Origin: Tribonema minus
Lineage: Eukaryota > Sar > Xanthophyceae > Tribonematales > Tribonemataceae
Length of the DNA stretch: 64,000 nucleotides
Assembly (NCBI GenBank): GCA_017506865.1
Contig: JAFCMP010000177.1
Span: forward strand, 1 to 64,000
Direction: 5' to 3'
Shown: positions 21,201 through 54,798 of the stretch, piece by piece
Numbering within the stretch: position 1 is the stretch's first letter
Layout: each line of letters opens with the position of its first letter
Position numbers and translations under genes: made by a program
Notes under the pieces: generated by a model
Seen by the model: the letters and a program-made list of their open reading frames with translations, nothing else
The model's database searches: none
Told to the model about the DNA's origin: nothing

Positions 21201-24200
21201 TACGCCCAGGGCAGGCTGGTGCCAGGCGGGGGGTCCCCCCCCCATGCCGCCGAGCCTGCTGGGGGGCTGTTGCCTCTGCTGCGGAAGGTGATGTGGGGGA
21301 GTGAGAAGGGGGGGGGGGGGGGGACGAAGGCACCAGCATGAGGTCAAAGAAATCGCAAGTTGAATCGGCACCTGAAACCACGATGGGCCATGAGTGGTGC
21401 ATCACGCAAGGCCCAGTCAGCACCGCCCAAGTAACAAGGAAGTACTGCCACTGAGAAAGAAGTGGGAGCATCAACCCAAGTTAGGGCTAGGGTTTGGTTA
21501 GATGTGTGCAGTCCACATTTTGCAAACCGCTGTATATAAAAGGATGCTTCAGCGTACTTTGTGATTGCATGTGCGCAGTGTTCCCACGATGCGAGCTTCA
21601 TAACACTTGCTAAGTAAAAAAGTGGTTCCCTTCAACTGCCTGCAGCAGTTCAGCGCAGCTTATACATAGTGAATGAGGGTCACATCACCACCCCACACAA
21701 CTGGCGCTAGCACTGACGCATACACTTTAACGGACGGCGATGACGACTATTGACCGTCGCCATACCATACTCGTCAGCAATGCAGTATGCTGAATGTGTG
21801 CTACTGATCATCGTCATCATCATACGTCATCATCGTCACACCGTGCCACTAGTGTAGCTACATTCATGCACATTCAGGCTATGGCAGGTTCAGCTCCCAG
21901 TCTTGCTGTTGTGCGCAACAACAACAACAGGCATCAAGTGCCCCCTACTGGACAGAGGGGGCATGCGACTGTCTTGATTGCGATCAGGCCTTGATGCGGT
22001 TGCCATGTGATCCATACTGTGGTGATGATGCTCAACTCAAAGCCACGTCAACGACAGCTTGCACGCTCACGAGCAGCAGAATTGGCAGACCAAGCAACAT
22101 GGTGCACCTCCTAACACGCAGTTTAAGCTCTTGAACCTCGTTGAAACTTCAACTCGATTTGCGCTCGCCTCCAAGAGACCGCTTGTGCCTTCACCCTCAA
22201 CCTAATGTGGACTTCTCACATTCGGTGAGAACTGGCATGTGAACACAAGAGGCAACCCTGACCTAACGCTCACTGGGCTGCTGTCGTTTTTCAACTAGGC
22301 CTGTGCGCTCAAAGATTACATGTACTGTCAATATGCGTCCCAAACTTCTTGCAAGCACATCAGAGTATGAGGACCACGGTCATTAATGGAAGGCACTGAC
22401 CGCCAACCACACCTTGTCACTTAGAGCTCTGCGATCTTTTGAATCGTTTCCATGAGGCAGTGGGCAGATGTGTAAACAGCCCTTGGGTCACCGCCGCTAC
22501 TTAACCCTAACCCACACCCCTAACCCTAACCCTAACCCGAAGGCAGTAGCGCTGGACAAGCTTGACCACGCCCCTCATCATTAGCCAATGCCGGTGACGT
22601 TACTCTACATGACACTGGTCTAGACCTTGCGAAGTAGTACCAAACCCGAATTGCAATCCTAACACCACAGCCAAGTAAAATCATCAAGGTACATAGTGGC
22701 AAGAAACTGCCGTATGGTTGCCCTCGCTTGGCATGGAGACAAGACATTGCCCTACTACCGGTACTCGTAGCTACACCAACGGCTTACTGCTAGGCATGAG
22801 CCAGTTGGAGTTGCATCATACATCTGCGATCTGGATGTATAAACTGCATGCTGCTGGCAACTAGCAGGATCTTCAAGCACCAAAAAGACTGGCACCACGC
22901 ATTGACGTAAGGCATCGATTGTTGCAGAATAACAATCCAGCCTCGCCTTACTTGAAGCCAACTTCAAGTACATTATTTGCAAGTGACGAGGACCGCCATG
23001 TTGCACGACATGTTTCGCACCACAGTGGCATCATTAATCATAATAATCATATGGACTCATGTACAGGGTGTTTGACCCAGTGCTTTGACTGTTTCGTTCG
23101 CCTGTGCTCACGCAGTCATTCCTCAAGAATTTCTGCTGGTGACGTTCTTGCAGCGAACGGTTGTGGTTGAGACGATGTAATTGGCTGCTTCATTTTCTCG
23201 ATGAATCATTCATTCATGCTTTGTGCTACTGACCTTTGACAGCAAGCTTGACCACAATGACCCAGTGTTTGGCCGGGTCATTCACTCATTTGATTCATTC
23301 ATGATTGTTGCGCTCATGATTTTGAAAGATCCAGCTTTCTGCTACTGACCTTCTTGTCGGCGAGCTCGACTACAATGACCAGGTGTTTGGCCGGTTCAAC
23401 TACTCATTCAATTCATTCATGATGTTTCATTCATGATCTTGAACGATCATCATATTCATGGCACTACACTAACCTTCTTGTCGGCCAGCTTGACAACAAG
23501 GGGTCGACTGCCGCCCTCCAACTGCAACACAGAAAGGAGAAAGACATTGGCAGCAGGCGCGTCAGTGAGCAAGCAGGGCACAAAGATGACTGCCAGAGGG
23601 GGGAGGTCACACGTTAAAGTCGAAGTCGCAGACACCAAGAACTGCTGATGGCGGCGAGGTGTGAGGTGGAGGCCACTGTAGGTATGCATGTATATCAGTT
23701 GCTGCACCTGAAGTCCGTACAAAAGCTGTCTGCAGCACATGTTGTTGAAACTTGGATAAGTGGTTCGCAGTGATGTCACGATTCTCATGCAGCTCTTCGT
23801 CCTCTTAATGAGGACTGCATCAGCCTTCAGTCAACACTCGTGGTAGCATCGCTTCACATAACATACCTAGTGCGCCCCCCACCCCAAACACCGCAGTACG
23901 TATTCTTCGATTGGCCCTCAATGTGCCTATCCATCAAAAAGCATGACATTCCCTGCACTTCAACCCAAACCTCATCCTCATTTGTCCCTACGACCGTCAC
24001 CTGAACCTGACCCTGAGCCTGGTCCATGCCACAATGTAATGTGCGCCTAAAGGAACTCGTTATGATTGTCAGCGACACGCACAAGTAGGGTTAGGTAACC
24101 CTAACCCTAACCCTAACAGTAGCGCCTCCACCATTGTCGCAGTCAATTTCCATGCCAGGCTGGGGATGATGAGCAGCGGCTTGCACTTTCTATAAATATG

Positions 24201-27200
24201 TGAGTTGTCTATACTTTGATGTTTATGGCAAGTATAAAGCTCCATGTGCCCACGTGTTGCGATAGACGCGCTCTGGTCACCTTGAAAATCGCATTCGGGC
24301 ATTCGCTGGCAAGTGCCACATGCTTCCAGGGACGCGCTCTCCCTGTAATGGTCTCACTGCTGTCATGATGTATTGCTGATCATGCTGAGCACTGGGATTC
24401 ACGCATGCATGCGCGCATACCCACTGCTCAAATTGGCCTCGTGCAATGGCTCGATGACAGCATACGCACACTCCAGCTTTTCATACTGTCACACTTTTAG
24501 ACATGGAAGCGAATCAAAAGGTCGTAGAGCTCTAGGCCGCAAAGTATGGTTGGCCGCCAGTGCCTTCCACCAATGACCGAGGTTGCCGCTGCTGCAGCAA
24601 TTGACCATGAGTCAAACAGTGCCACCATATCCACAGGAGCCCAAAGACTTTATACATGTACCATGCACACCTGCATGCACACTCACAATGTGGCTGACCA
24701 GCCTGAGCACTGGGCATACGTACATGCATACATATGTGCATATGCATTGGCCTCGTGCACAGGCTTGGTGGCATTAGCGCTCTCCAGCTCCTCGTTTCAA
24801 TAATAAGTCCTTCTATACATACACACGTAAACATACATACATACTCACAATGGCCTCGTGCAGCGCCTTGATGGCGGCGTTGGCGCTCTCCAGCTCCTCA
24901 TACTTGACAAAAGCGCAACCCTGCAGCAATTCGCGCACCAGAAGTGAACATTGAGAGTCCATCCATGAGAAGCCCGGGGGGGTTTCAGTACAACACGAGA
25001 GGGAGCTCCGGTAGATGATTGAGCCCTGCATACATGTGACACTCACCCTCACGCTGCTGATTGTTGTGGACGACACTACCTGTGAGAACACAACATCAAG
25101 CTGAATGTAGCAAGAATGTCACTAGGGTAGGTATCATGACAATGGCTTTGTGTAACGAACTCAGTACACGGCGCAAGCCTGATGCACTGCGCCACATGAT
25201 ACCACATGATACATGGCACGTCGGCGACGCCTTGTTGAACTTCAACTTGCTGCTTGCACGAACAGCTGCGACAAGTGCCACCAGCGGAACCCATATGACC
25301 AAACGCACAATGCACGACAGCGCACTGACACCTATGGCACAAGTACACACATTGAGACGCATTCCAGGCATGCCGCTCGTGTACACGTTCCCGTGTTGTG
25401 CTAAAGCCATAACGTGTTTGTATCCCCACTTGCGACAGGTGCCACAATGGTGAAGAGTGTCACTGCTTCACTGCAAAACACCTGCCAGCAGCACGCTGAG
25501 CCACGCTCAAACAGATTGCGGCGTTGAGCACACTAACTAGCTCAGAATGCTTGTACACTGACAGTTACACACAGGCACTTTGCACTCAAGTGAGCAGTTA
25601 CAGAGGCCCTTCTGCTAAATACTTGCAGTTCTGACACGTGGTCTTGGCTGCTGGACGCTCCATCACGCCTCAACAGATACATGACTCATTGCCATGTCTT
25701 GTTGCGGCCCAAACCACCAATCCAGAAACCTGCAGCGGCTCACCTTGGAGGTGCCATCAAGATCTCTGATGACATATATTTCCGTGATCTTTCCGTACGG
25801 CTGGAACAGCTGCCTTAGCTCATCCTCTCCCCACCGCGCTGGCATCATCCCCACAAACAGTTTGTTCTCCTTCACGGCAGCTGCAGCATTGTCACATAGT
25901 AATGGGAACAGGCGCAATATGTAGCGTATGAGTGTCATGCTTCAACATGCGCACTTCCAACGTGACGCCGGCTCGCCCGCACAGCAAGTTTATGGAAAAC
26001 GAATCAAAAAGATCGTTGAGCTCTAGGTGACAAGGGATGGTTAGCTGCAAGTGCCTTCCACCAATAACCGTGGTCGCCGCTGCTGCAGTCATTGGCCACA
26101 AGTCAAACAGTGCCACCATAACCACAGTAGTTGATACTCTTCAAGCAGCTGCACTTGCACAAGGAGCGGCGTGCGGCAGAGATAGGGGGCCAGATGTGGT
26201 AGGCAACCCCCCAACTTCAAAAGGCAAGAGGTGACATGCCATGCTCTTGAGTGATCCATCAACGCGCTACGATACGCTAGTTGAAGCTGTGTTCGCCTCC
26301 GGCCACTGCGCTGACGTGCATCCCCTGGCAAGGGCTCTACTTCTCGACACTCAGTGCATCAGAGCAACAGCAGAGCAACAGCAGTGTTGTCAGCGTGCTC
26401 ATGCGCGTATTGCCAAAGCAGAGGTTTGATATCATTGCAGACAAATCACCGTAACCGCTTAACCCTGGCAATATACATGCGCATGTTGGCCCATCGCTAC
26501 AATCCGCTCATTCCTTGTCTAGTAATCCATACACACAGCATCATACCATCATAGCCACACATACAGTATCGCCCTTCACAGCAGCTGCAGGAGAAGAGAG
26601 CAGTGGCCAGAGCGCGGGCCACGGGCCTCCCGTTGCCAACATGCTGTAAAGGGTCTTGGACTGTTGTGGCTTATGCGCCATGCAGAGGGCCTTCGGCATA
26701 CATACAACCTCGCCCGCGTAAATCCTGGGTGCTATGAGTGATGCGGAGCACTGCTGCTGTCACCGGAGCGCTGCTGACACCTGCCAGGACCATCACAGCG
26801 TATCCCCGACGGTACCAGCACTCCTCCCGTGTGCTAGTGTGTCTGTCTACATGACTCCGGCATTGGCTGGGGAAAAATGTGGGCTCGTGCTTTCCGATGC
26901 CGCCGCCAACAAATAGCGTGCCTTACCAAACCTCAATCTCAGACTTGCTTCCGCAATGCTGCTGCAGTTGCGAGGTTCGCACAAAGAGCAGCCATGACCG
27001 ATTGTTCACACAGCTGATGCTGTATAAACCATGCCTGAATGCTGTTGCTTATCAATAATGACTTCCAGCGCATCTCCTTGCGCCCACCTCCAGGAGTGGC
27101 TTTGGCAGCCAACACAGGCACGTGGTTCGCGCAGCAGCAGCGATGCACACTAGCTGAGCGCATTACACCCATGACTCATACTCAAAGCCTCGGACTCACA

Positions 27201-28302
27201 TGCCATGCCCGCGTGCGAGTCCGCGGGCCGCATCTGCAGGGGATTTTGCGCATTGGGCAGCTTGACGTTGTTGTTGAACATCTCAATGGCCGCCTCCGCA
27301 GCTGCTCTCGTCTGGTACGTGATGAACATGCAGCCTGTCATTGGGGCGATGCAGCGAATGAGGGTCGCGACGCACGTGCGCACAGCAATGGTGAGTGCTG
27401 TTCCGTGCACAGAGACGTCCGGTGTCATGCACAGTTGATGCTACAGGAATGTAGTTTGACAGCAGTAGCACCAGCATTTTGGATTTAAAGCTCAATCAGG
27501 TGTGTCCATCACGTGCAGCAGGCCAAGCATAACACTTGCGAAAAGTGCTCATGTAATTCGTGCCAGTAATGGAACCGAAGAAGCTGCAGAGATGTACTCA
27601 GTTTTCCGATGTGATAATGGCTCCGACACGCACAAGACACTCCTTTCGAAAGGCTGGCAAACATGCCACACAGACGACTTCGCTGGAGTGGCGAGCGCGT
27701 CACATTAATCAAAATCTGTTGTCGACCATGCAACAAATTTATCGTGAAGCGCTAGATCAATATGTCACAGAGCACCGCCAGCGGAGAAGTTGATGTACGT
27801 ACCTCGATGCATCCTGGTCTGTCGATCCCGAATAACCATCAGATGTGCTATGGGCCTGTGAAAGGCAGACATCGGACGAGCAGGGGCGTAAATGGAAAGG
27901 GCCTACCGGACTGTGCGGCAGCTCAGAGGTTGTCATGCTGCAATCTGCGTGTCGCCACGAGGTGGAGACAGCTGGCAAAATGGGAGAGCATCTCTGACAG
28001 TGAATTCATCGAGCCGCGCCAATGCCTCACCCTGCTTTCTCGAATATGGGCCTCAGCTGCGCCTCGTCCATGTGCTTCGGCACCTGCCCGACGAACAACT
28101 TGAGCGGCTGCTCATCTGGCGCGTAAGGCTGCCCTATCTGCTGCTGTTCTGCAGGCTGAGCCGCTCCGACGGAGCTTTGAGCCCCATGCCCGTCGCCGGA
28201 TGGGAACGGAGAGGATGTGGGAGTGCGAGGCACTGAATAATCGCCCTGTTGGGGCGGCATCACGTCACCTTCGCTGGGCTGATGTTGCGCGGGCTGCTCC
28301 AT
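18283..28302 (-). CDS. CELF/BRN1-type RNA-binding protein with three RRM domains
   Basis: Nine exons keep frame with GT-AG borders: 28302-28031, 27855-27803, 27334-27200, 25880-25744, 24920-24849, 23521-23474, 21278-20325, 19136-18963 and 18624-18283, giving 728 aa. RRM1 (about 67-150) has LKLFVGQVP and [11 protein letters not shown]2 (about 158-238) has NKLFVGMMP and [11 protein letters not shown]3 (about 546-618) has SVFVYHLPP and GFGYVSYD. Two N-terminal RRMs, a long linker and one C-terminal RRM define the CELF/Bruno family, which controls splicing, translation and decay of mRNAs through GU-rich sites; plant BRN1 is the nearest type. The linker is one 954-nt exon, rich in Gln, His, Gly and Ala and probably disordered. 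An in-frame ATG at 28344 is an alternative start. Exons 5 and 6 have degenerate copies of themselves in the following introns. Confidence 0.93.
19412..19440. repeat. Interstitial telomere-like repeat
   Basis: Two to three CCCTAA-type units with variants lie inside the intron between the CELF linker exon and... the next exon region upstream of 19136. A second variant tract lies at about 19878-19910. Confidence 0.55.
22381..22455 (-). repeat. Dispersed repeat R1, copy 1 (minus, short)
   Basis: Read on the minus strand, this matches the copies at 24501-24641, 25991-26130 and 51722-51834. The common core runs from GATTCAAAAGATCG through GAGCTCTA and a TGGTTRGC string to CAGTGCCTTCCA. It lies in the intron after CELF exon 6 and lacks the right-hand half of the unit. 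Confidence 0.75.
22501..22538. repeat. Interstitial telomere-like repeat (CCCTAA)n
   Basis: About five CCCTAA units and variants lie inside a CELF intron. Confidence 0.8.
23221..23521 (-). repeat. Tandem donor-side copies of CELF exon 6
   Basis: The real exon 6 3' end and donor (about 23510-23472) is followed downstream in the gene by two degenerate copies, near 23395-23341 and 23280-23224, with a period of about 116-120 bp. The nearer copy preserves a CTCGCCGACAAGAAG exon end followed by GTCAGT. The farther one keeps AAG before GTCAGT. Both copies therefore carry a usable-looking 5' splice site. Confidence 0.85.
24086..24116. repeat. Interstitial telomere-like repeat with an inverted start
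   Basis: A short TAGGGTTAGG stretch is followed at once by about three TAACCC units, so the two halves point in opposite directions. It lies inside a CELF intron. Confidence 0.75.
24431..24920 (-). repeat. Copies of CELF exon 5 in the following intron
   Basis: The 3' part of exon 5 (24903-24849, coding [13 protein letters not shown]) recurs in degenerate form at about 24800-24748 and 24492-24431. Both copies contain the CTCCAGCT and GGCCTCGTGCA strings seen on the plus strand. Flanking text (GAGCACTGGG) is also shared between the two copies. A dispersed repeat R1 lies between them at 24501-24641. Confidence 0.82.
24501..24641 (+). repeat. Dispersed repeat R1, copy 2
   Basis: This 140-bp unit is closely similar to 25991-26130 along its whole length, from GAATCAAAA through GAGCTCTAGG and GTGCCTTCCACCAAT to CAAACAGTGCCACCATA. 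No terminal inverted repeats, poly-A tail or tRNA promoter boxes could be confirmed. Confidence 0.8.
25991..26130 (+). repeat. Dispersed repeat R1, copy 3
   Basis: This is the second full-length plus-strand copy of the R1 unit, located in the intron between CELF exons 3 and 4. Confidence 0.8.
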
Positions 28303-28631: not shown

Positions 28632-31600
28632 ATGGCGCAGTTCACCACTCCCAAGGTGCACATCAACACCGATGGCTGGGGACCCACCAACAGGTGAGAG
28701 CCGACGCTGCGCACAGAATGCATGCAGCTGTGTCTGCGCCCTCCGCTCTCTGCTGACCCTCGATACCTGCTCGACCTGCACCGCAGCAACCTGCCGCAGC
28801 AGTTCCTGGATGTGCCCTATGCTCCCTTTGGCAAGTCAGACAGGATCGGTCGCGCAGCCGACTTCACAGCGCCTCTGTACTACCAGAACCGCACATTCAG
28901 AGGAGGACGCGGGAGGGAGGAGGCCGCAGTCAACACAGAGTTCCAGTACAAGTACGACAAGGAGGACGATGCGGAGTTCGAGCTGGTGGACACAACTAAG
29001 ACCACCACAGGAGGCCGCGGCCGCTTTGGAGGCGTGCGCAACAGGTGGCAGCAGGGCAGAGGGCGTGGCGGGGGGCGCGATGGCGGCAGGGGAGGGAGGG
29101 GGGATGGCAAGGCGACGGCGCCTGTGCAGATGCGGTCTATCAAGGACAGGGCCAGGCAGCAGCCTCAGGGCAAGAAGAAGTGGAATGCCCTGAGGAAGAA
29201 CGACAGGCGGCCCTGGCACAGGCGGTATCAGAGGAGCGACAGGCAGGCCTCTGTCAAGATCCAGGCGGACTGGCAGGTGAGATCATGAACTTGTCACCTT
29301 CGGCGATTGTGCGCGATGCTGGGCATCTTTTCTCGCAGTAGAAAGCGCTACAGTAGGCGGCAGTAATGCAGTGGATGGCAGCAGTCAGTGAGCAATATGG
29401 GCACATTGCCAAATACTGATCAGCCGAGACCATCAGTAGTGGCTAATGTGAGGGCAAACTCCGCGCTTAGCAGCACACTGTGCAGCATCTGGACGACCTA
29501 GGGTGGGGGTAGGCTTAGGCCAACCCTACCGAGACCACACCCTAGGTACAGGTGTTGTGAGATCCTATGTCCCTTGTGCGGTCGCGCACAGCGTCTGCAT
29601 GCCAGCGCGCCACAGATGATGTCACGTGCAGCACCTATGGGCATATGGCTCTATCATTTTTCTGGGCAAGTCATATGGTGGATCTTGGGCTGCACATGTT
29701 TGGCAGTCAGTTGCTCGCCTTACCAGTTGCTGTAAAGCATGTAGCAAGCAAGTATCATGGTGGCTGCTGCGTACGCCTCACCGCTAAACAGCGGCATCAG
29801 AGTTTTGCATATATGCACACAATGAAAATCGGCCATGTGTTCAGCAATTGATGAGCCACCTCTGAAGGCATCGTGTATGTGTATGACTTGAGGTATGATC
29901 GCTCTTTGCATCATCCAAGGCCTGGGGCACCTTCTGATTCACCGTCATACAAACACACCTTGTAGCTCGGCACATTCTCAAATGTTTTGTTGGTGCCCTC
30001 ATACCGGACAAAGGTTGATGGTGGCTCGTGTTTTGCAGCAGTGCTTTGACCTGATCTTGTGGGTGCCATTGTCTGGGTGGCAACATGCCGTTGAAGTCTG
30101 TGCATAGTCCACAACCTCATTGACAAGTGTTACTGGCACGAATGCAGCCAATCAGCCTCAACCAAAACAATCAGGTGGCAAAAGAGTCAGTCGCAGACCA
30201 GCCTTACCAGCTCCTTGATTGGTCCTACTGCGCACACAGCACCTGTCCAACATGGTCTGTTGGGGCAGTTGCATGTGATGTGCAGTGCTGAGCAATGCTG
30301 ACCAGTGCTGCAGTAGGGGGCTGTGTTGACTTGCAGGCAGCAGCGCTCCACTGCCGCTAATGCTCTGGGCTCCAGCCTCTGAAGCTCCTGCTCTGCAAAG
30401 GCAGGAGGACAGAAGGGGTAGGGCTTCAGACCTTTCAGTGCTGTGCTGGTCCTTGAGGCGATGTTTTACGCGCTTGAGCGCTGACTTCCTGGCAACTGCT
30501 GAGCACTGCCATGTGCACATGAGACCTGAGCGCTGACACCTCGACATACCCCCCCTTAACCTCAATTTGAGCAAAGCCACCAGTCAACTGTTCACCATCT
30601 CCTGAGCAATGCTGCATGTAAAGCCGCCTGAGCGCTGACCTCTCTGCCACGTCTGCGACGCCCAACCTCCATGCTACTGCAACTTGTGAGCAGTACACAT
30701 CCTGAACGCTGACTTGTCACCACGATATTCGTCGCCGCTGAATTAAACACGCTTGACTTGTTGGTGGCCCAAGGCACTTCCTGAGCAGTGCCACGTGTCA
30801 TCATGTGCCAGTAACGGCACATTAGCGCTGCCTTCTCCGCGCGATGCTCCTCCACCTGAGCGCTGACATGTCAGCACGATGCTTGCCGCCGCCGCTGCCT
30901 CAGGTCCTAGAGGAGCTGGACTGCCCGCGCTTGACTTTTCATTGAGCTTCCTTTTGACCAACGATAACACCTCAGCGATAACTCACTCAGCGCGATTTTC
31001 CCTCGCCTGAGCGCTGACATGTCAGGTTCATTCTCGCCCTTGTCACAGGTCCTGGAGGAGCTGGACCTCCCCGCGCTGACCAACCTCAGCGAGCATATTT
31101 TGACTGTTTTTACGTCTCGAGCACCGCCACGTGTCAGCAATGATCATGTCCGGCATTCAGCTTCATTCTCCCTCACCTGTGAGCTGACATGACAGTTTCA
31201 TTCTCGCCTTCATCTCAGGGGCTGGAGGAGCTTGACCTGCCCGCGCTTGACAGCTCATTGAGCTTATTTTGAGCAGTACCACGTGTCAGCAATACCCATC
31301 TTCAACTTCTCAGCGCGATCCTCCATCACCTGAGCGCTGACATGTGGTAGAATTTTACTTCTTTCCCCCTTGTCTCAGGTCCTGGAGGAGCTGGACCTTC
31401 CCGCGCTCACCAAGCTCACCACGGCCGTCCCCACGGTCACCGACCTGCAGTGGTGCGGCTTCCTCGACCAGTACGACGAGTCCTACGACACGCTCACCTC
31501 GCGCAACCCCAAGCGCCTGCGGCGCCACGAGAACAAGGAGTTCTACTTTGTCACCACAACGGACGACCCCGTCATTGAGAGGCTCACCACGGAGCTGGAG

Positions 31601-34600: not shown

Positions 34601-35488
34601 GGCATCGTCAAGGAGATCGTCGAGCTTATCCGCAAGCAGGTGCGCCGAGCCGCTGCTGACACGCAGTGGTGAAGTTGGTGTTGAAGTTGCATGCGTCTCG
34701 GTATGGTGGGAGCGGACGCGTGCGGCAACGCGTGAAGCATCGACGGGCAGATTGTCCGGTTTGGTGTGAGCGCTGCTGACACATTGTTGAAGTTTGTTTT
34801 GAAGTTGACTGGGTTTGCCTCACATCGCAATCGCACGTCTTGAATGCGCCCCACTTGACCCTTGCCTACCTCTTTTACCCCAAGGTACCGCTTCATGCAG
34901 GCAAGTTTATCAGCACGGCATTGTCACCGTGCCATCTTCTACATGTATTGTTCTGTGCCTTTCGGCCTTGGTCAGTTGATGTGTAGTCAGCTGTGAATCT
35001 GGCTTGCCAGTGAACGAGACAGTTCGTGCACACCCAGCAAACTACCCTCCCCGCCCTTCTGGGATGCCATGTCACCACACTGGCATATCCTAATTGTACT
35101 GCCCATACTGCATGCATGCAAGCACTTCATTGAAGGAATCCACCTGAACAAGCATACGATTACTATTAAACCGGCACAGTCTTGGCAAGATAAAAGGTAG
35201 GTGTTCGCACTGTCGATTAATTGTCTTGTGTCAGGGCGCAGGAAAGCCAAGTTATCTTTTGGCTGGTCATCTACTGTCGCACTCAGTCTCTTCACTGTAC
35301 ATGGCCTCAATGATACAAGCTGATCATCACCACATTGATGGGACTTTTTCCGCTCGCAGGAGGACGGCAAGTTTGTGGTCATGCGTGACCCTAACAAGGC
35401 GGTTCTGCGCATCTACAGCGTGCCTCTGAGCACTTTCGAGGATGAAGACGAAGAGGAGCAGGAGGAAGAAGAGGAGGAGGAGGCATGA
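28632..35488 (+). CDS. EIF3D: Eukaryotic translation initiation factor 3 subunit D (eIF3d)
   Basis: Seven exons keep frame: 28632-28693, 28787-29276, 31379-31789, 32509-32732, 33807-34020, 34475-34639 and 35360-35488, giving 564 aa (the human protein is 548). The product starts [18 protein letters not shown], matching the eIF3d N-terminus. Family landmarks follow: [95 protein letters not shown] and [14 protein letters not shown], then an acidic Glu-rich tail. eIF3d is part of the eIF3 complex on the 40S ribosome and contains a cap-binding fold. An Arg/Gly-rich insert lies near residues 90-120. Introns 2, 3 and 4 are filled with exon-edge copies, described separately. Confidence 0.97.
30470..31405 (+). 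repeat. Acceptor-side tandem array before eIF3d exon 3
   Basis: The intron in front of exon 3 contains repeated units, each with CTGAGCGCTGACATGTCAG-like text. In the last four units this is followed by CAG and GTCCTGGAGGAGCTGGAC-like exon sequence. Exon-start copies lie at about 30903, 31051 and 31220, before the real one at 31379 (spacings about 148, 169 and 159 bp). Older, more decayed units extend back to about 30470 as CTGAGCGCTGA motifs. Confidence 0.88.
31735..32190 (+). repeat. Donor-side tandem copies after eIF3d exon 3
   Basis: The exon end coding [18 protein letters not shown] plus its GTGCG donor (to 31789) recurs at about 31926-31979 ([18 protein letters not shown]) and 32130-32184 ([18 protein letters not shown]), each again followed by GTGCG. 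The two copies share one open frame that runs from 31832 to 32542. Confidence 0.9.
32706..32925 (+). repeat. Donor-side copy of eIF3d exon 4
   Basis: The exon 4 end (GGGCCCCGAACTCAACATTG ... GGCGAG, then GTGCGTC) is repeated in degenerate form at about 32887-32925, with GGCAAG before GTGCGTC. Confidence 0.8.
33113..33860 (+). repeat. Acceptor-side tandem array before eIF3d exon 5
   Basis: Copies of the exon 5 start (coding [15 protein letters not shown]) lie at about 33113-33165, 33279-33314, 33462-33540 and 33628-33678, before the real exon at 33807. Spacing is about 165-185 bp. Shared intron text with CCTCAACT and ACTTCAT strings precedes the later copies. Confidence 0.9.
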
Positions 35489-41221: not shown

Positions 41222-41285
41222 GCAAAACGCGCACACCACACATCATCAACGCATGCTGCTTGTCTATTTGCAGGTGCTCATATAG

Positions 41286-41497
41286 ACCTGACTGACCACT
41301 GCTGCCATTGGCACGTCACCTCTGCCATTGGCTCATCACCTCCGAATCTTCAATGCTGCTACTGTTGGCACGTTACCCTTGAATCTCCACTGCTACCATT
41401 GGCACGTCACCTCTGACTGAGCACTACCATTGGCACGTCACCCTCAAAATCTGACTGAGCACTGCTACCACTGGCACGTCACCTCTGAATCTCCACC
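41286..41497 (-). repeat. Tandem copies of the CKS1 coding end and 3' flank
   Basis: Strings such as CCATTGGCACGTCACCTCTG, with AATCTCCA or GACTGAGCAC variants, recur five to six times at intervals of about 35-60 bp on the plus strand. The unit nearest the gene spans the last codons and stop of CKS1, so the array looks like expansion of the end of the last exon into its 3' flank. Confidence 0.75.
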
Positions 41498-43873: not shown

Positions 43874-46800
43874 ATGGCAGCAAATCCAGCAGATCCGCTG
43901 GGTCAGCTCCGCCAGCTGCTGGTGCAGACGCAGAACCCCAGTGCTGACCAGCGCAAGAATGCAGAGCAGTACCTCGTCAACATGGAGAGGCAGCCAGGAT
44001 ACCCTCAGCTGCTCGTGCAGCTCATCGAGTCCCACTGCTCTCGAACGGGGGCGGAGGACAAGAGCCTGCGAACCCTGGGCGCCATCATGTTCAAGAACCT
44101 GGTGAAGCGGTGCTGGGTGCCTCCAGAGGATGGAGATGGCAAGGAGAACGCCCTGGGAGCGGACGACAAGGCTGCCATCAAGGCCAACATGGTGCACATG
44201 ATGTGCATCGTGCCTCCGGAGGTGCAGCGGCAGTTCAGCGAGGCCCTGACCATCATCAGCAAGCACGACTTCCCGCACGACTGGCCGGCTCTGCTGCCGG
44301 ATCTGGTGCAGCGCATGAGGAGCAATGACTATGGGGTGGTGCTGAGCGTGCTGGTGACAGCCAACTCCATACTCAAGAGGTTCAGATATGGCTTCAAGAG
44401 CGATGCCCTGATGATGGAGCTCAAATACGTCTTGGAGCACTTGGCGGTAAGATATATACACAATTGCTAAGCTAGCTGCTTTCCTGAGCACCTCACAGTT
44501 CTGCAGCGTACAGGTCACAAATTGTGCAAAATGTCTACCAGCTATGAGAGATTACAACAGAGTTGCAGTTGTGTGATGTCGAGTTCAATGCCTAGTAGTT
44601 GCTGATGTCAGTTGGCAAAAATGTACAATTGGCCACCTTGGCTGGGGAGCATGGGGGCCAATGCCCACCCAATGCGGGCTGCCTTGACACATGAAAGGGC
44701 CAACGTGAACCTTGCGCCCTATAACCCACACACGAGCATGACAGATGCATGTATGTACCGGGAGCATGTCACAAACGACCTCAGCTGCGTGCCTAACATG
44801 CACGCGGCGCCATCACATCCGCAAGGTGCGCGTGCTGATCTGTCAATGTGCATGCCCCCCAAATAACCTCTGCAGGCGCCTCTGACAGAGCTGCTGCAGC
44901 AGACCAGCCAGGCAGTTGCGGCGGCGGCGGGACAGCCACAGCAGCTGGCCACGCTGTTTGAGTGCTTGCGGCTCATCTGCAGAATATATTTCAGCCTGAA
45001 CTGGCAGGTATGGACTATGGCTTGCCAATTGAGTGGGCGACCTGCTGCTGCTGCTGATGTGCACATTGGTGTCAGTTGAAGTTTCACCAATGAAGTAGCA
45101 GTTGTAGCTCAGCCTTGCTAAGCGCGAGCGCTTGTGGCTATGTTGGCAGTCATCATGATTTCACGCGTGCCTTCGCCTGGCATCTCAATGGAGTACCTTG
45201 ACCTGAAAACGGCATACTGCATAATATGCTTGACGACTGCCGCAAGTTAGATGACTGGAGTACTGCTTGACTCAACACACAATCAACGTCAACCATTGAC
45301 GAGGGATTGTCCATGCAGCTTTTGCATGTGGACTTTTAGACAATGGTCACAATGGTCACCCCAGGATCTACTTCTGACATTGCCGTGTCATTTCTGAACA
45401 GTTCAGAACAGACAACAATTTCTTGAAAGTTGGGTTTGCTGTGCCTCCCACTGCAGGACTTGCCGGAGTACTTTGAGGACAACATGGCGATATGGATGGC
45501 GGAATTTGGGCGCTATCTGGCGTATGATGGACCGCAGCCACCGGAGCCCACCATGGAGAATGAGCCAGGCGCGCTGGAAAAACTGCAGGTATGTACGTAT
45601 AGATGCTACATATCAGCAGGTTTTCTGGAATGGTGTATCTGTGGAGTATTGCTGTGAAAATTAGGACCGCTGCTGAGCATTGCTGTGCACTTGCGTGGAT
45701 TACATCACACATTTAGTTTGCCGCTGCTGCAGGGGTTTTGGATACTTGCAGCAATAACAATCATGGTGGACAATTGGGGGCGTTGCTGATGGTGATTTAG
45801 TGGAGAACAAGTATGCACATAAGCACATGCAGATGCCTCTGCTGACGGTCAATGATACGGGGGGGCACAAGGTTTGTAGGGTAGATCTTGTTGTGTAACT
45901 AAGTTTGCGACCTGCTTCCCATTCGACAGTCCGCCGCAGTCATGAAATGAAGCAGTCAAGTATGTTGAAAAGGCCTTGCATTCACAAAATTGAAGCAGTC
46001 ATGTATGTTAACAGGCTTGTTGTGTTTCAAAATTGGGTGCCGATCAGCAGTCAATGCAAGGGGTTGAGCATTGTGCGCAGTGTTGTTTGTTTCTCAGAAT
46101 GCAACTTAAATGGCCACAATTTGCTGTGATTGCAATGGCGTGGGTCTCAGTGATGTAGTAGGCCCTTTGAGTAGCACGCAGTGCGGTAGCTAGTCTTGAC
46201 ATTTCAACATTCTGCAACAGAAAAATGTGTAGTTGATGATGAGAAAGCCTACTGTTGACTCAATGTAGCATGCATGTTGAACGGCCTACTGCTAGCCCTG
46301 GTAACTTCGGGCTGCTTTGAGGCACTTGCGCACCGCTAGTGACATTGGTTACCTTGAAGTCTTGTGCTGCATGTCTGGCCATGCCAATGGTGATGATTCC
46401 CTGTTACGGCAGGGATAGGGTCAGGGTCGAGGTTGATGTCAGGTAGGGCTTGCCTAGTTGCACCCCTCTGCAAGCTGAGGTTGGTGGCATCATTGATCCT
46501 GAACCAAGCGGCTTGTGCAGCATAGTGGTCAGACCTGAATGGAAGGGTGCTGAGAGTTTTGATAGTGTTTTTTGAGAGCTTGACTCCAATGACTTGGCAT
46601 CTGCGGCCACTTTGCAAACTCAATTTCCTGTTCTGAACTCGGAACTTCAAGTCTGACTGTAACCCTCTTGGCTCCCATGTAGACTTGGCCTGTCACATGC
46701 TGCTGACACATCCTTGCTAGCTGCTAATAGTCAATCTTTACTGGGGAGAACGCCAATGTGGATGCATAAAGTGTCACGAAGAGCCTTTCACATGTTGGCC

Positions 46801-49800
46801 ATGGCTGGTACGAGCACCTGACATTGTCAGTTACCTGGGTAATCCATCCATACATACCCCGTGTGTTCCATACAGGCGGCGATAGTGGAGAACATCAACC
46901 TGTATGCGAGCAAGTACGACGAGGAGTTCCAACCACACCTGGCAGGCTTCACAACTGCCATATGGGCACTGTTGGTCAAGGTGCGGAACAGCCATATGCA
47001 ACTGCCATATGGTACACGTCGATGTCTTGCGGGTGATGTCTCATGTAGTGATTTGCCTCTTGACGGAGGTGGTGTTGATGTCATGAGGTGATGCACATGA
47101 AGCTGGAACGCAACCATGGGTCAGACTGCAGCTGCAAGTGCTCAGAAGGGGGTCTTGGCTTTGCCTGACCTTTGTTGAAGTTTTGCATGGCACTTGAAGA
47201 TTGCGTTTGAAGGTTCGTGTCTGGCATGCAATGTCTGGCTTGGCGTTGCTTCGACCTATTGGGTCGATTGAAGTCTTTTTTGCAGCAACAAGGTGCATCC
47301 GCCTTTCCCTGCTTACTGATGTATCCGTATGTTCATGACTTCATCCAGTCAGGCAGATTGGAATACAAAAAGCAGTGCCATGACGCGCTGACTATGAGTT
47401 GCACCCGCTTTCACCTGCTTTTTCAATCATTCTTGCTGTTCGTGGTAACACTGGAGCAGCGCCACAACGCGCATGCGCACTGAACATTTCACACGTGGGC
47501 CTGTTGCATGAATTCATTGATTGATCCATCTTTTCATGATTTTACTCCATGAAGCAGGTGGGACCGGAGCAGCGCCACGACGCACTGGCCACGACCTGCA
47601 TCCGCTTCCTCACGTCGATAGTGAGCAAGCAGATGCACAGCGCGCTGTTTGCCGAGGAAGCTACGCTGCGCCAGATCACGGAGAACATAGTTGTGCCAAA
47701 CCTGGGTCTGCGCGACAGCGATGAGGAGCTCTTTGAGGACAACCCCTCTGACTACATTCAGGTATGTACGTTTTTGATAGTTGATTACCATTATGACATA
47801 CAGGTATGTAGTTGATGATGAAAACGCGCGCATGAGTGTTGAGCTTGATCATCATTCTGTGATGAGCCCTCTGACTACATACAGGTATGTATGTATTTGA
47901 TAGTTAATTACATACAGGTATTTGTTTGATGATGAAACACGTGTGTGAATGTTGGTCTTTGCTGTCACCATTCTGCGCTGAGTGAGATGAGTGACGTCAG
48001 TGACAATGCTTCGGGGATCATATATCAATGGCAAATAGCTTCGGCTTTTTGCAGGGTCCTGACAAACACACTATTGCAGCTGAGTGATGCTGCTGGCCAT
48101 GCACCTGCAACTCCTTTGAAACACGTGACTCATGCGACATACTTTCATACTTTCCAAGCCTGCATATACTCTCAAGATATGCATCACAGCACCACATGTG
48201 CAGGTACCTGTCATGGCTCTTGTACAAACACAATATGCTACATTTGTATGAAACGTATACTATATTCAGTGCATGGCATCTCATCAGTGGCGCTCACTGT
48301 TTGAGGCTGAGGGATACCCAACTTAACTTCGATGTTGCCTACACCTGACTGTCACATTGTAGCATTGAACCTGGATATTTTGGAGCGTCGGAAAACTGCC
48401 TTCATCGCCCCCCTGCACCCGCGCAGCACAAGGAGGGCAGCAGCGGTGATGCAGCGTTGGGGTTGTTTGATGCCCAACCTAACCTCAACATTACCTAAAC
48501 CCTGAACTGTGACGTTATTAGCATGTAACCTACAAAACTGCGCCCTTCCCCCCCCCCCCCCCCCGCAGCGCGACATGGAGGGCAGCGACAGCGACACGCG
48601 GCGGCGCGTGAGCTGCGACCTCGTGCGCGGCATGTGCAGACATCATGAGGCCGCCACCACGCGCATCTGCAGCGAGCTCGCGGGCACGCTGCTGGCGCGC
48701 TACGCGTCGGATCCCGCGCAGCAGTGGCGCTGCAAGGACGCGGCGCTGCAGCTGCTGCTGGCGGTGAGCGTGCGCGCGGCGAGCGCGGCGCATGGCGTGA
48801 GCGAGACGAATCAGTACGTCAACGTCATGGAGGTATTCTCCTCGAGGTATGTATGTATGGAGGTTTGTATTGACAAGATCAGTCACTACAGCAATGTCAT
48901 TACCACCTCGTACATCAACGTCATGTGGGTTTGCGAGACCAACCAGTACGTCAACGTCATTGAGGTCTTCTCCTCAAGGTATGTATGCATGTATGGAGGT
49001 TTGATTCGTAGGGGCCAGTCAGTACAGCAATGTCATGTAGTTTGTGATACCAACATGTGCATCAACGTCATGTGGGTTTGCAGCACCAACCAGTACGTCA
49101 TCGCCATGGAGGTCTTCTCCTCAAGGTATGTATGTATTTTCCTCCAGGTGTGTGTTGCATGGTGGTTTGGTTCAACAAATTAGTGAGTACAACAAACTAT
49201 TGTGAAGTTTATGATATCTACAACTCGTACATCGACGACGTGTGGGTTTGCAAGACCAACCAGTACGTCAACATCATGCAGGTCATCTCCTCCAGGTATG
49301 TATGTATGTATGGAGGTTTGTTCAGAGGCCAGTCAGTACAGCAGCTGCATGCGTGTTTGTGATGCCACTGTAAGTCAGCGCCAGGGTGTTGATCAACGTC
49401 AGAGGTGTTCTCGCGGAAGGATGCTCGTATGCAAGACCAACCAGTACCTCAAGGTCACTTGTCAGATCAATCAGTTCATCGACATCATGGAGGTGTTTGC
49501 CTAACCCTAACGCGCGCGCATGCCTAACCTTAACCCTAACTCTAGTGTCTTGACCCTGGATCTAAGTTACCTAACTGCCCATCACCCCCTTCCCCCCCCC
49601 CACCATCGACTTCCCTGAGATCTCAATGCCCGACGTGAACACGCGGCCCATTGTGCGCACTGACTGCAAACACGTGACATAATTGTGCTTCATGTTGCTG
49701 CTTTCACTGGAGTGGTCTCCGCATATGCGTCCCAACCCTGACCCCAAGTTTGTCCATCCCCCCTTTTTCCCCCTGCACCCCCCCCCAGCGTCCTCTCTGA

Positions 49801-52800
49801 GATCTCAATGCCGGACGTCAACACGCACCTCATCATGCGCGCCGACTGCAATCACATGACGTGACTGTGCTTCATGTTGTTGCTTTTGCTGGTTTGACCT
49901 GCATATAGTACCCCTAACCCCCAGTTGTCAATCACCCCCCCCCCCCCAGCGTCCTCCCTGAGATCTCCACGCCGGACGTGAACACGCGGCCCATCGTGCA
50001 CGCCGACTGCATCAAGTTCGTCGCGACGTTCCGCAACCAGTTCACGGTGGAGCAGATGCGCGCCCTCGTGCCCATGCTCATGGCACACCTCGCCAGCGAA
50101 GCGGCGGTGGTGGCCACATACGCGGCGATGGCGATTGAGAAGCTGCTGCTGGTGAAGGACAGGGGGGCGGGGGCGGGGGGGGCGCGCGTCGTGCAGTCGC
50201 GATTTGGGAAGGCGGAGCTGCAGCCGTTCCTGGGGAAGCTGTTTGAGGGGCTCTTTGGCGTGCTGGACAACGCGGACATGCCGGAGAATGACTATGTCAT
50301 GAAGGTATGTATGTATATGTGTGTTTGTGTATGTATGTATGTGTGATACAACTGTGTCGGCTAATGTATGTACATGAGTGACCGACAAGTGTGTAGCTCT
50401 TTGGCGTGCTGGACAACGCGGACATGCCGGAGATTGACTACGCCATGAAAGTATGTATGAATGTGTTCAAATGTGAGGCATGTGTGTCGGCTTATGCATG
50501 TACACCAGCAGTACCCCCCAGAGGGGCGGGGACAATGCGGACATGCCGGAGAATGACTACGTCATGAAGTTATGTATGTATATATGTGTGAGATGAGTGT
50601 GTCGGCTAATGTACATCTGTAACAGACAAGTGTGTGGGCTACAAGAGCATTTGCAGTGAGTGTTCGGTCAAGAGTTGTATGCCCAGTGCTGCAGGTTTAT
50701 GTGCAAGTGGGGGCAGGTACTGCGTCATCCAAGGCTGTACGTCAACCAGAAAGCCAATGATAATGCTTGATAGTGGGTACAGAGACTCTGTGCGGATGTT
50801 TTCAATTGCTTCAGACATGGCAACGTTCAATATAATCTCTGTCATGAACAGCGCACATTCCTCTCTACAGCATTGGTGGTGTCAATCACCGTCGCTGAAA
50901 GCAACAGCGATGAACCTGTTCGCATAGTAAATTGGCATAGTAAAGTGGACAGTGCGCACACAGGCACGATAATGGCAAGCGCGTATGTACAACAGGTGGC
51001 TGCGACTCATTAGCAGTATGACGATCGGAATGCCACCGGAACACACACTGACAGCCATACTCGCGACAGCTCACAGAGCACAGCAGCTTTCCCAATCTGC
51101 ACTGTGTGACCTACACTGCAATATATGCCAGCATCCGGAGGGGGCAGCACAGTCAAATGTACTTTTGCAAACGTACATGTACATACTGAGTGCATACATG
51201 AGATGACATTCAAGGAGCTTATCTGAAGATGTACATTGAAACCTCGTCTTCATGCCATGGTATTTCTATCATGCACTTGTTGTTGCAGAGCTGTCGCGCT
51301 GCACGTTTACAGGGCAGCTCCAGAGGCAGACGTTGCTGAGATTGATGGGCAGGTTCGATTTGAAGTTGAGACTGCTGCGTCTCGCAGCTCATTAATTTGC
51401 ATCATTGATTGCATCAAATCTGTGATCGCTACAGCTGGATGATGAGCCGTAAGCAAGGCCAAGAGAAGCAGCAGTACGCGCTCCAACTGTACCAAAGAGC
51501 AAACTTCAGCATCTCATATTACTGCATCATACAATTGCGATTGCATTGCAGGCCATCATGCGCGCGCTCAGCACCGCGCAAGAAGCCGTCTTGCGGCCCA
51601 CTCATCTAATATCATCTGTAATTGCTATGTACTGCATGCCATATTGAGCCGTCAGCAAAGCCACAAGAAACAGCAGTACGCGCTTCAACTGTACAAAGGA
51701 GCAAACTACGACAGCTAATGTTACTCGTGGCCAACTGCTGCAGCAGCGGCGACCACGGTTATGGATGGAAGGCATCGGCGGCTAACCACACCTTGTCACC
51801 TAGAGCTCTACGATCTTTTGATTCATTCTCATGGCTGCATTTTACAATTGCCATTGCATTGCAGGCTATCATGAGCGCGCTCAGCACTGCGCAAGAAGCC
51901 ATCGAGCGGGTCATTCCTTAAACTTATCTATGATTGCTTCTGCATGCCATTTTGAGCCGTCAGCAAGAAACAACAGCATGCGTTCCAACTGTACGAAGAG
52001 CAACCCACACAGCTCATATTGCTACTGCAATGTACTATCATGTATGCGCATTGCAGGCCATCATGCGCGCCCTCAGCACCGCGCAAGAAGCCATCGTGCC
52101 GGTCGCCACCGAGGTGCTTCACAAGCAGGCGCAGTACCTGGCCAAGGTCTGCGCCAACCCCGCAAATCCGCAGTTCAACCACTACCTCTTTGAGAGTATT
52201 GCGGTGCTGGTGGGACGCGTGTGCCAGGCGGACGCTTCGACCGTTGACATGTTTGAGGCAGCGCTCTTCCCGCCGTTCCAACAGGTATGTATGTATGTAT
52301 GTATTTCGTAGTATGTGGTTGTTCCTGTTCAGACGAGCACTGAGGCCTTGACATGTACAAGGCAGCGCTCGTCCGGCCGTTCCAACAAGTACTGCGAAGT
52401 GTGTTATTTGAAGTATGTATTTGTTTGTGTGCAAGTGGGAGTTGTGGTCTTGACATGTTCGAGGCGGCGCTCTTACCGCCATTATGATGGGCGTGTATGC
52501 ATTTCCTCATGTGCAGTAGAGCGCCGTGATGACATGTTTGTCGCAGCGCTCTTTCCGCAATTCTACAAAAGGAGGCACTTGAGTGTTGAGCTCGAGTGGT
52601 GTGAAGCAGGCGCAAGCGCAGCTCGTAAAGCGTTACCGTTATCATCGGGCACGTCCCTGCACTTGCACACACATTATCACGCATTGACCAAGGACATTGT
52701 GGTCCTGCCTAGCTCGTGTGTGCCGGTGAATTGCCCAAAGGAAGTCCCTGTGACATGCACGGTGCGAGGCTCCAGCACCACATACAAGTATACTTGTTGA

Positions 52801-54798
52801 AAGTTGTTGCGCACTCTAGTGTGAAGGCTATTATGACTACGGAGCACATTTGAGGCACACCTATGAAGTGTGTGAGCAGTGAGCATGTTTTGCAGGTGGG
52901 GGAATGTATGCATGTACTTCTATGCTTATTATGGTTGAGGCGCCATCCAGCTCTCCCCATCAGGCATGCGTGTAAGAACTGCCTGGAGAAAGCATGGCCT
53001 TTCTCTGCTCAACTTCAATCGCTGCATCCACTTCTAATCGACTTCTGAAGTTTCATATGGTTATATTTGGTGTGACTGCTCGCCCAACACCCTCAATTTG
53101 CCCCTGGGGTAAGCCGGTGCCCCCATGTCTGACCTCTCCGAACGCTTCCTCTCTCAAACACCTTGCGCAACACCAGGTTCTGGCCCAGGACGTTGTGGAG
53201 TTTGCCCCCTACGTCCTCCAAATACTGGCGCAACTGCTGGAGTTGAGACCGACGGTCACGGGTGGAGCCTCCGGCTTCACACCCGCGTACACGGCGCTGT
53301 TCCCCCCTTTGCTCAGCCCTGTGCTGTGGGAGCGGAGGGGCAACGTCCCTGCGCTGGTGCGCCTCTTGCAAGGTATGGAAGAACATGATTCGCGTCCATG
53401 CGCCTCTCAGAAGGACGTTCCTGCACTGGTATCTTTTAAATAAAACTGGTGCTGCACGGGGCCCGCCATTGGGAAGGTTGCAAGTGCGTAACAGAGCATG
53501 TTTGACAAGCTCTTTGTACGTTGATGACACAGGAGTACAGACGGTGCAGACATGCGCAGTGAAGGTCTACACTGCAGAGGGGTCAGGCACACACTCACAT
53601 GTATTCATGTTCCTTCTTGTGTCGCAATCTTGTAACAATGTTTGTGAGTAGTAGTGGTACAGTAGCGGTCGCAACAGCTGCAGTGGCTTGCAGTTGTCAC
53701 ATCCTTCTCTTAACCTGGCCCTTGTTAAGATGCATGCCATGCGCGCACAGCTCACTTCATCGCGTACACGCCCCTGCCGCTGCTCGCTGCCACCTCAGCG
53801 TACCTGCGCAAGAGTTGGAAAACACATTGAACTTATTTGTTGGATCTATCTTCAGTCATCGTTGTTACCAATTTTCTTGTGCAACGTAACAAAGCCAACG
53901 TCGCGAACACAGTGACCACAAGCATGCCATGTGTGCGCAGCTCGTATTCATCGCGCGCATGCCCCTGCCGTTGCTCGCTGCCACCTCAGCGTACCTGCGC
54001 AAGGACGCGGCAGCGCTCGCCAACGCGGGCCACCTTCCCGCCATGCTGGGCGTCTTCCAGAAGCTCCTGGCGACGCGCGCAACGGAAGAGCATGCGTTCG
54101 CCCTCCTCAGCTCCATCTTCACCTACTCGCCCGTGGCCGCGCTCGACCCCTACCTCAAGGACCTCTTCAACCTCATGCTGCTGCGGCTGCAGAGCCACAA
54201 GACGGTCAAGTACGTGCGACACCTCACGCACTTCTTTGCGCTGGTGGCCGCGCGCCACGGCGCCGCCTTCCTCGCACGCTGCCTCGAGGCGTGCCAGCCG
54301 GGCCTCCTGGGCATGATTCTCGCGCAGGTCTGGCTGCCCAACTTTGAGCAGGGCCTCGTCCTGAGCTCGCGGGAGGAGAAGGTCTTCTGCGTCGGCATGA
54401 CGAAGCTCGCGTGCGAGTCGAGCACGCCGATCAGCGCCAACTCGGAGGTCTTTGCGGGGCTCATGCGCTCCGTGGTCGCGATCCTCTCCCCGGAGGAGCA
54501 GAGCCGCGCCGACAAGAAGAAGGAGGGGGCCCTCGAAGAGCCCCCCCCGGACGCCTTTGAAGACGAGGAGCGCGGCTTCGACTCCACCTACAGCAAGCTG
54601 CACTTTGCGACGACGGAGGCGGGGCAGGACCCGCTGCCGGACGTGCAGGACGTGCCCGCGTTCGTCGCGCGCGCGCTCGCCGCGGCGTGCGCCGCCGCGC
54701 CGGGGCAGCGCCTCACGGTGCTGCAGCGCGCACTGTCGCCGCAGCAGGCGGCCGCGCTGCAGGGGTTCTGCGCGCAGGCGGGGGCGTCGCTGGTGTGA
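43874..54798 (+). CDS. CSE1: Exportin-2 (CSE1/CAS), importin-alpha re-exporter
   Basis: Ten exons keep frame: 43874-44446, 44876-45007, 45457-45588, 46876-46980, 47558-47761, 48569-48846, 49950-50304, 52057-52284, 53177-53372 and 53990-54798. The product is 1003 aa (human CSE1L is 971). It starts with an importin-beta N-terminal region ([14 protein letters not shown], then FKNLVKRCW), continues as HEAT repeats, and contains CSE1 signatures: [65 protein letters not shown] and LGVFQKL. It ends in the CAS/CSE1 C-terminal region. With RanGTP it returns importin-alpha to the cytoplasm. Donors of exons 5-8 begin GTATGTA and run into TATG microsatellite. From exon 5 onward most exon borders have copies in the adjoining intron. 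Confidence 0.96.
47280..47920 (+). repeat. Copies of both edges of CSE1 exon 5
   Basis: Upstream of exon 5, partial copies of GAGCAGCGCCACGACGC-like exon start lie at about 47370-47420 and 47453-47480. Downstream, the exon end CCTCTGACTACATTCAG plus GTATGTA recurs at about 47868-47890 (CCTCTGACTACATACAG, GTATGTA). Short TACAG/GTAT copies occur nearby, with a shared TTGATAGTTAATTA-type spacer. Confidence 0.75.
48805..49495 (+). repeat. Donor-side tandem array after CSE1 exon 6
   Basis: The exon 6 end, coding [14 protein letters not shown] followed by AG/GTATGTATG (to 48846), recurs at about 48937-48979, 49083-49124 and 49249-49297, with a more decayed copy at 49430-49492. The first three copies keep a CTCAAG or CTCCAG end and GTATGTATG donor. 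The frame stays open from the exon through the first two copies to about 49183. Confidence 0.93.
49503..49546. repeat. Interrupted telomere-like repeats inside a CSE1 intron
   Basis: TAACCCTAAC and CCTTAACCCTAACTC pieces are separated by a GCGCGCGCATG string. They lie between the donor array of exon 6 and the acceptor array of exon 7. Confidence 0.6.
49590..50010 (+). repeat. Acceptor-side tandem array before CSE1 exon 7
   Basis: The real acceptor (poly-C, CCAG, then CGTCCTCCCTGAGATCTCC) at 49949/49950 is preceded by two copies at about 49593-49670 and 49779-49855. Each has a C-run and the GAGATCTCAATGCC.GACGT exon start. The nearer copy retains CCAG/CGTCCTCTCTGAG; in the farther one the AG is CCACCATC. 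Spacing is about 165-190 bp. Confidence 0.92.
50240..50580 (+). repeat. Donor-side tandem copies after CSE1 exon 7
   Basis: The end of exon 7 ([18 protein letters not shown], then GTATGTATG, to 50304) recurs at 50397-50451, nearly exact and followed by TATGTATG. It recurs again as the shorter 50522-50574 (GACAATGCGGACATGCCGGA onward). Confidence 0.92.
51430..52100 (+). repeat. Three tandem units at the acceptor of CSE1 exon 8, one carrying an R1 insertion
   Basis: The exon start coding [13 protein letters not shown] is at 52057. Copies lie at about 51552 ([13 protein letters not shown]) and 51866 ([13 protein letters not shown]). The intron text before each copy is also shared (GATGAGCCGTAAGCAAGGCC-like, GCAGTACGCGCT.CAACTGTAC). 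Unit spacing is 191 bp for one pair and 314 bp for the other; the extra length corresponds to the R1 repeat at 51722-51834. Confidence 0.92.
51722..51834 (-). repeat. Dispersed repeat R1, copy 4
   Basis: Read on the minus strand it matches the R1 copy at 25991-26130 from GAATCAAAAGATCG through GTGGTCGCCGCTGCTGCAG. It interrupts the middle tandem unit before CSE1 exon 8. Confidence 0.8.
52240..52580 (+). repeat. Donor-side tandem copies after CSE1 exon 8
   Basis: The exon end GACATGTTTGAGGCAGCGCT ... CCGTTCCAACAG (to 52284) recurs at about 52351-52390, 52454-52490 and 52531-52575, at intervals of about 104, 103 and 77 bp. Decay increases with distance from the exon, and the donor itself is not intact in these copies. 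Confidence 0.88.
53730..54005 (+). repeat. Acceptor-side copy before CSE1 exon 10
   Basis: The segment CATGCC...GCGCAGCTC...CCCCTGCCG.TGCTCGCTGCCACCTCAG/CGTACCTGCGCAAG at about 53923-54005 has a close copy at about 53731-53815, including the CCACCTCAG acceptor and CGTACCTGCGCAAG exon start. A smaller copy of the exon 9 end (GACGTTCCTGCACTGGT) lies at about 53412-53430. Confidence 0.9.

Follow-up and report, generated by a model that had tools for sequence, protein, structure and literature searches.

Transposons and drift are the usual explanation for the lengthening of introns. The gain of whole introns by tandem genomic duplication has reportedly been worked on by Gao and Lynch in 2009 and by Hellsten et al. 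in 2011. Sequence stuttering, including the stuttering of exons, has been described on the dot chromosomes of the chicken (Hron et al. 2026, GBE, PMC12954441). According to the available portion of that report, exon stuttering copies a lateral exon segment along with its splice site, the source lying no more than one base from the border in >90% of cases, with an exonic part of 20–187 bp (median 36) and 1–44 copies (median 4), and it was found in 190 of 5,572 dot-chromosome introns (3.4%) (PMC12954441). The same portion places stuttering mostly on dot chromosomes, gerbils being mentioned with data not shown, and gives great variation in the length of stuttering introns between individuals as one of three main features; stuttering confined to introns is found as well and is expected to be the more frequent form, and does not figure among the three main features as listed there (PMC12954441). 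In the AGGT model of intron gain by tandem genomic duplication, as outlined in the accessible part of a review, a new intron arises from one exonic duplication (PMC3443670), while introners, in the section of the source at hand, are dispersed families shared between introns (PMC9860276).

We have analysed, from sequence only, one 64-kb stretch of DNA (the window) which, judging from its spliced genes and GT-AG introns, is eukaryotic. We assembled gene models manually, with GT-AG borders and open frames as guides, and obtained five genes with 26 introns (total length 23,085 bp) and 52 exon edges:

18425–28302, minus strand: CELF-like gene with three RRMs, nine exons, the last partial (Pfam RRM_1, three stretches).
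28632–35488, plus strand: eIF3d, seven coding exons (phmmer to solved eIF3d, E 6e-149).
36825–38622, plus strand: type III PKS-like gene, two exons (Pfam).
41479–43455, minus strand: CKS1, three exons (Pfam CKS, E 6.9e-29, with the pieces joined with XXX).
43874–54798, plus strand: CSE1 / importin-alpha re-exporter, ten coding exons (phmmer to solved importin-alpha re-exporter, E 1.3e-156).

Alignments of the eIF3d and CSE1 translations to their solved homologues extended over the exon joins (phmmer). The join between exons 2 and 3 of CKS1 is out of frame in the model, which may lack a microexon at that point. Scans of the genome-contig and viral-contig collections with the eIF3d protein found no relatives.

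Copies of exon edges are present in the adjacent introns. BLAST of whole exons against the window returned sense copies inside the neighbouring introns, at or near the exon border, and comparison of the window with itself gave 49 direct repeat pairs less than 1.5 kb apart against a single inverted one. The original prediction had proposed self-alignment with a shuffled-intron control as a check; run here on the window's models, with 60-nt exon edges compared with their own intron and with 200 dinucleotide shuffles of it, this left 17 of 52 edges (9/26 donors, 8/26 acceptors) that beat every shuffle (p floor 0.005), where 0.26 would be expected. The antisense control reached a top score of 22, and for all 17 edges the own intron outscored every other intron. 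The best match ended within 2 nt of the border for 13 of the 17, and at 5, 7, 10 and 15 nt for the rest. Three edges are doubtful, with matches of only 12, 14 and 17 nt (CSE1 exon 4 acceptor and donor, CELF exon 7 donor); setting them aside leaves clear copies at 14 edges, in 12 of the 26 introns. The copies predicted at many exon borders are thus real, at about a quarter to a third of them. The four genes named in advance, CELF, eIF3d, CKS1 and CSE1, all carry them, as opposed to the PKS-like gene, whose only intron (472 bp) held no significant exon-edge copies in the edge test. The arrays and weaker duplications are the following:

23218–23499, minus strand: CELF exon 6 donor array, real edge plus two copies (BLAST, self-comparison, masked comparison, mapping).
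24375–24904, minus strand: CELF exon 5 donor array, real edge plus two copies (BLAST, self-comparison, masked comparison, mapping).
30701–31418, plus strand: eIF3d exon 3 acceptor array, three clear copies with AG intact, weaker repeats upstream.
31732–32192, plus strand: eIF3d exon 3 donor array, two copies, both with intact GTGCGT.
32706–32922, plus strand: eIF3d exon 4 donor, one copy (self-comparison; edge p≤0.02).
33110–33859, plus strand: eIF3d exon 5 acceptor array, four copies, AG lost in all four.
34639–34807, plus strand: eIF3d exon 6 donor-proximal duplication, exonic part marginal (edge p≤0.01).
41288–41496, minus strand: CKS1 coding-end array (self-comparison and exon-masked comparison).
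41555–41887, minus strand: CKS1 exon 3 acceptor array, 54-bp unit, five copies beyond the real edge.
47371–47607, plus strand: CSE1 exon 5 acceptor, two partial copies (47371–47410, 47450–47470) plus real edge.
47744–47982, plus strand: CSE1 exon 5 donor array, one copy (BLAST, self-comparison, masked comparison, mapping).
48392–48590, plus strand: CSE1 exon 6 acceptor, weak copy (loose-threshold pair; edge p≤0.015).
48801–49497, plus strand: CSE1 exon 6 donor array, three clear copies with GTATGT intact, a fourth decayed.
49585–50011, plus strand: CSE1 exon 7 acceptor array, two copies.
50250–50635, plus strand: CSE1 exon 7 donor array, two copies.
51418–52104, plus strand: CSE1 exon 8 acceptor array, two copies, one spacing of 313 bp against about 192.
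52244–52562, plus strand: CSE1 exon 8 donor array, three copies.
53732–54003, plus strand: CSE1 exon 10 acceptor, one copy, exonic part only ~14–16 nt.

Alignments showed that the repeat units hold exon end, splice site and flanking intron jointly. Neighbouring copies are spaced 52–207 bp apart, with exceptions of 313 bp (CSE1 exon 8) and 314 bp (CELF exon 5), where units of about 50–200 bp had originally been proposed; the number of extra copies per array is 1–5, where one to six or more had been proposed. The expected one-sidedness, donor copies downstream and acceptor copies upstream of the exon, is true but follows from the definition, since a copy joined to the exon body counts as the real edge, and so it constitutes no independent evidence. 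The copies are imperfect and decayed, the exonic parts diverging by up to 0.28 from the exon and the copies by 0.05–0.30 from one another, through both substitutions and indels. An artefact of assembly or of merged haplotypes would have to account for this accumulated divergence, for its recurrence in four genes and for the interruption of two arrays by a dispersed element, and we consider it the most improbable of the explanations weighed here.

The dispersed element, of ~100–140 bp, occurs in four copies, at 22422 (minus), 24515 (plus), 26006 (plus) and 51801 (minus), all in model introns. Two of these copies interrupt exon-edge arrays, whose spacing they enlarge: at 24503–24639 the element lies between the two copies of the CELF exon 5 donor array, and in the CSE1 exon 8 acceptor array it fills the extra length of the 313-bp spacing. 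A pattern taken from this element had 12 matches in genome contigs (bacterial records), against roughly 7 expected by chance (an estimate from 18 fixed bases, 257 Gb and two strands), and none in viral contigs.

How closely these arrays resemble exon stuttering could be assessed by rerunning the blastn-short screen in the available part of the chicken report (PMC12954441) on the 26 introns, without its manual review. The screen returned 22 proximal and no distal matches, and 12 proximal matches, in 6 of the 26 introns, exceeded the published bit-score cut. All 12 confident matches were sense, the maximum over 20 shuffled runs being 32.2 bits; seven lay within one base of the border and all 12 within seven, though BLAST ends are trimmed at mismatches. 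The share of introns, 6/26 against 3.4% of chicken dot introns, has to be read with the present window having been chosen because it shows the pattern, and the median exonic match was 42.5 bp here against 36 bp in the chicken. As far as the accessible text of that report goes, both systems consist of imperfect tandem copies of the lateral part of an exon plus its splice site, proximal only, in the adjacent intron, and of imperfect blocks of tens to hundreds of bases, which here are spaced as given above. They differ in that purely intronic clusters also occur in the chicken, whereas none of the 14 intronic arrays here is interior, in that the copies here are fewer (1–5 against 1–44, median 4) and more decayed, and in that the present lineage is another one, perhaps algal. 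Taken together, and as seen in one assembled window and in the available part of the chicken report, the arrays appear to look and work closely like chicken exon stuttering. With the AGGT model, as the review presents it in part, they share local tandem duplication and the conversion of exon sequence into intron, but that model creates a new intron whereas existing introns appear to lengthen here; its signature, an intron that terminates on its 3′ side in a duplicate of the end of the upstream exon, was not seen, since no donor-edge copy listed by whole-exon BLAST abuts the acceptor. Introners, in the section of the source considered, are likewise a repeated process shaping many introns, but the exon-edge copies here, the only sequences compared in this respect, match only their own exon, with no distal matches. 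Among the literature matches listed, which covered few subscription journals, there was no report of anything like exon stuttering outside vertebrates.

The clear local duplications within these introns are anchored at exon borders. With all model exons masked and the remainder compared with itself, 43 direct and no inverted pairs remained less than 1.5 kb apart, and these included 14 intronic arrays, every one with an end 0–59 nt from an exon edge, in support of the junction-anchored duplication into introns that had been predicted. Thirteen of the 14 include exon sequence when unmasked, the eIF3d intron 6 array doing so only marginally. The remaining pairs comprise three that span the CKS1 coding end, one formed by the dispersed element in two introns, one that joins short donor tracts of two arrays, and six at two places outside the models (9.7–10.3 kb and 15.08–15.69 kb). 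At the latter place a degenerate tandem array (15082–15687, unit ~183 bp) adjoins no recognised exon and could lie at the border of a gene that escaped recognition. When the 14 array spans were placed at random within their own introns, the combined Fisher p was 1e-10, with spans entered by hand and two introns holding two arrays each. Since all 14 arrays still lie at an exon edge once exons are masked, a general tandem duplication visible only through exon conservation is ruled out. Outside the listed arrays no same-intron pair, direct or inverted, was found at E≤0.1; with inverted pairs as the null and some listed arrays given generous borders, relaxing the threshold to E≤1 brought up six direct pairs and one inverted pair, and to E≤10, 27 and 19 respectively, a small excess of weak pairs. 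By inspection, three of the six direct pairs (23130, 48313, 48392) extend junction arrays and three (20097, 25267, 30288) are of 13–22 bp. There may therefore be a weak excess of interior duplication.

This anchoring could reflect a mutational hotspot specific to the border, with breaks and local re-copying occurring there and interior duplications hardly arising; transcription or replication pausing, or a step in GC content or nucleosome occupancy at the border, could be its cause. We regard it as the main rival and as possible, if rather doubtful. The lack of interior arrays fits it, as does the border bias of the exonic parts, which span 16–63 nt in 15 arrays, the intronic part being mostly longer, and have a mean relative exonic share of 0.26 against 0.5 for uniform breakpoints (p 0.0005; lengths entered by hand). 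Against a hotspot tied to splice junctions, one of nine coding start or stop edges, the CKS1 coding end, carries an array as well. That edge may be a stop codon or an unrecognised donor, and it hints that a splice site may not be required for an array. The bias might otherwise be a relic of short ancestral introns, in which no tolerated duplication of 50–200 bp could have avoided an exon edge. Introns of 93, 151 and 175 bp are indeed still present, and in CSE1 intron 6 (1103 bp) two junction arrays take up 648 and 354 bp. However, other array-bearing introns have long array-free stretches in which interior duplications should have arisen, as in CELF intron 6, where 2195 bp contain only a 231-bp intronic array, and a relic origin appears unlikely to us.

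The explanation that we favour, to which we would give an even chance of being right, is that introns here grow by recurrent border-straddling tandem duplication with the exon as a standing template. Local duplications of segments of ~50–200 bp straddling the exon-intron border would recur, each taking 16–63 nt of exon and usually more of intron. Such duplications would do no harm, since a working splice site stays with the copy attached to the exon body and the remainder becomes intron. The copies would then decay without visible constraint, while the exon, held constant by selection, would stay available as a template and seed new copies or overwrite old ones. A purely intronic array would have no constant member, and arrays would persist at exon edges because the selected exon remains an unchanging template. 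In the window, the tandem arrays are anchored at junctions and decay, splice sites included, and clear interior arrays are absent; we infer that template switching, slippage or unequal exchange took place at the DNA level and that the exon acts as a standing template. A point against the model is that persistence alone seems too little to explain 14 arrays against none: by our reasoning, an exon-anchored array should stay recognisable no more than about two times as long as an intronic one.

Several observations agree with border-straddling duplication from a standing exon. The arrays are direct, tandem, local and border-spanning, the 14 that remain after masking all lie at an exon edge, and exon matches occur in adjacent introns only. 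In all 11 arrays with at least two intronic copies, the exon-derived part has diverged less between copies than the part taken from the intron (Wilcoxon p 0.001; a second analysis gave the same direction in 11/11), a difference that alignment error in the gapped intron parts could have inflated. Likewise, third codon positions of the source exon are over-represented among the columns in which intron-resident copies vary (52/161 against 71/313, rotation p 0.002; without CpG, 34/113 against 53/259, p 0.019), a signal that may partly be a base-composition effect, the excess sitting at G/C positions. Neither feature would be expected if one founding duplication had simply been multiplied, and both suggest repeated use of the exon as a template, by copying or conversion. 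Other observations go against the model. The nearer copy is not the younger, as it resembles the exon edge more closely in just 15 of 29 comparisons (16 of 31 when judged from the intron part), so that strict serial outward growth with the youngest copy nearest is unsupported. Moreover, three copies of CSE1 exon 6 share several states unlike the exon, and therefore no recent re-seeding is seen in that array.

The fate of the copied splice sites bears on whether the copies are kept by selection, as decoy splice sites or as alternative exon ends. Overlap between neighbouring copies threw the MAFFT alignments of several short-unit arrays out of register, and counts were therefore taken from pairwise alignments, in which two CKS1 copies are still misregistered. 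Of 34 copies, 20 retain the splice dinucleotide (10/16 donors, 10/18 acceptors), or 22 after re-registration by eye of two CKS1 losses that look like registration errors. Neighbouring exonic dinucleotides up to 14 nt from the border are identical in 324 of 442 cases (73%). As GT/AG survives no better than these, the selection for decoy sites raised in the original prediction is unsupported, though it may act on single sites, and the copies look unconstrained, including their splice sites. Outside CKS1, splicing at 15 of the 17 intact copy sites would introduce a stop or shift the frame, and AG is lost in every copy of eIF3d exon 5. As usable alternative exon ends, only 2 of the 17 fit: these are two intact CSE1 exon 6 sites, where the frame would be extended without a stop. 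Such sites, the survival of GT/AG in some copies and the lower divergence of the exon-derived parts are what speaks for maintenance by selection, an explanation that we find very improbable in view of the counts above. By eye, several donors in the CSE1, CELF and eIF3d introns continue as GTATGTATGTATG, some acceptors are preceded by CATACATACAG, and the two motifs are mutually complementary, so that a pairing of intron ends is possible.

Other repeated and mobile sequences accompany these genes. On the minus strand, a 2039-codon open frame at 2114–8230 with reverse transcriptase, RNase H and C-5 cytosine DNA methylase domains neighbours a frame with integrase domains (53–1447), and from its domain content the pair looks like a retrotransposon bearing a DNA methyltransferase. 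Short interstitial telomere-like CCCTAA tracts occur at 19416, 22518–22535, 24099–24116, 41196–41219, 55894–55949 and 59016–59055, some of them in introns, with 16 exact 12-mers against 0 expected; at 59.0 kb they stand side by side on opposite strands. The AACCCT motif, which these tracts match, is cited for Chlamydomonadales in the available part of a paper on Haematococcus lacustris (PMC7617258), which gives no more than a hint at the taxon.

Our observations suggest outward stuttering from exon borders as a way in which introns can lengthen; here, intron growth is anchored at those borders. More tentatively, and with somewhat less than even confidence, we propose a junction-specific, lineage-wide process that re-copies exon borders outward with the selected exon as a permanent template, which would have arisen independently in birds and in the present, perhaps algal lineage and would represent a general, overlooked route of intron growth, in this lineage the main form of local intronic tandem duplication. 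Finding the same signature at such a distance from birds would show stuttering to be no peculiarity of GC-rich dot chromosomes, and any well-assembled genome can be examined for it by a simple screen. Each array is moreover a built-in clock, with one copy under selection and its neighbours not, and the pattern bears on how spliceosomes ignore near-perfect decoy sites.
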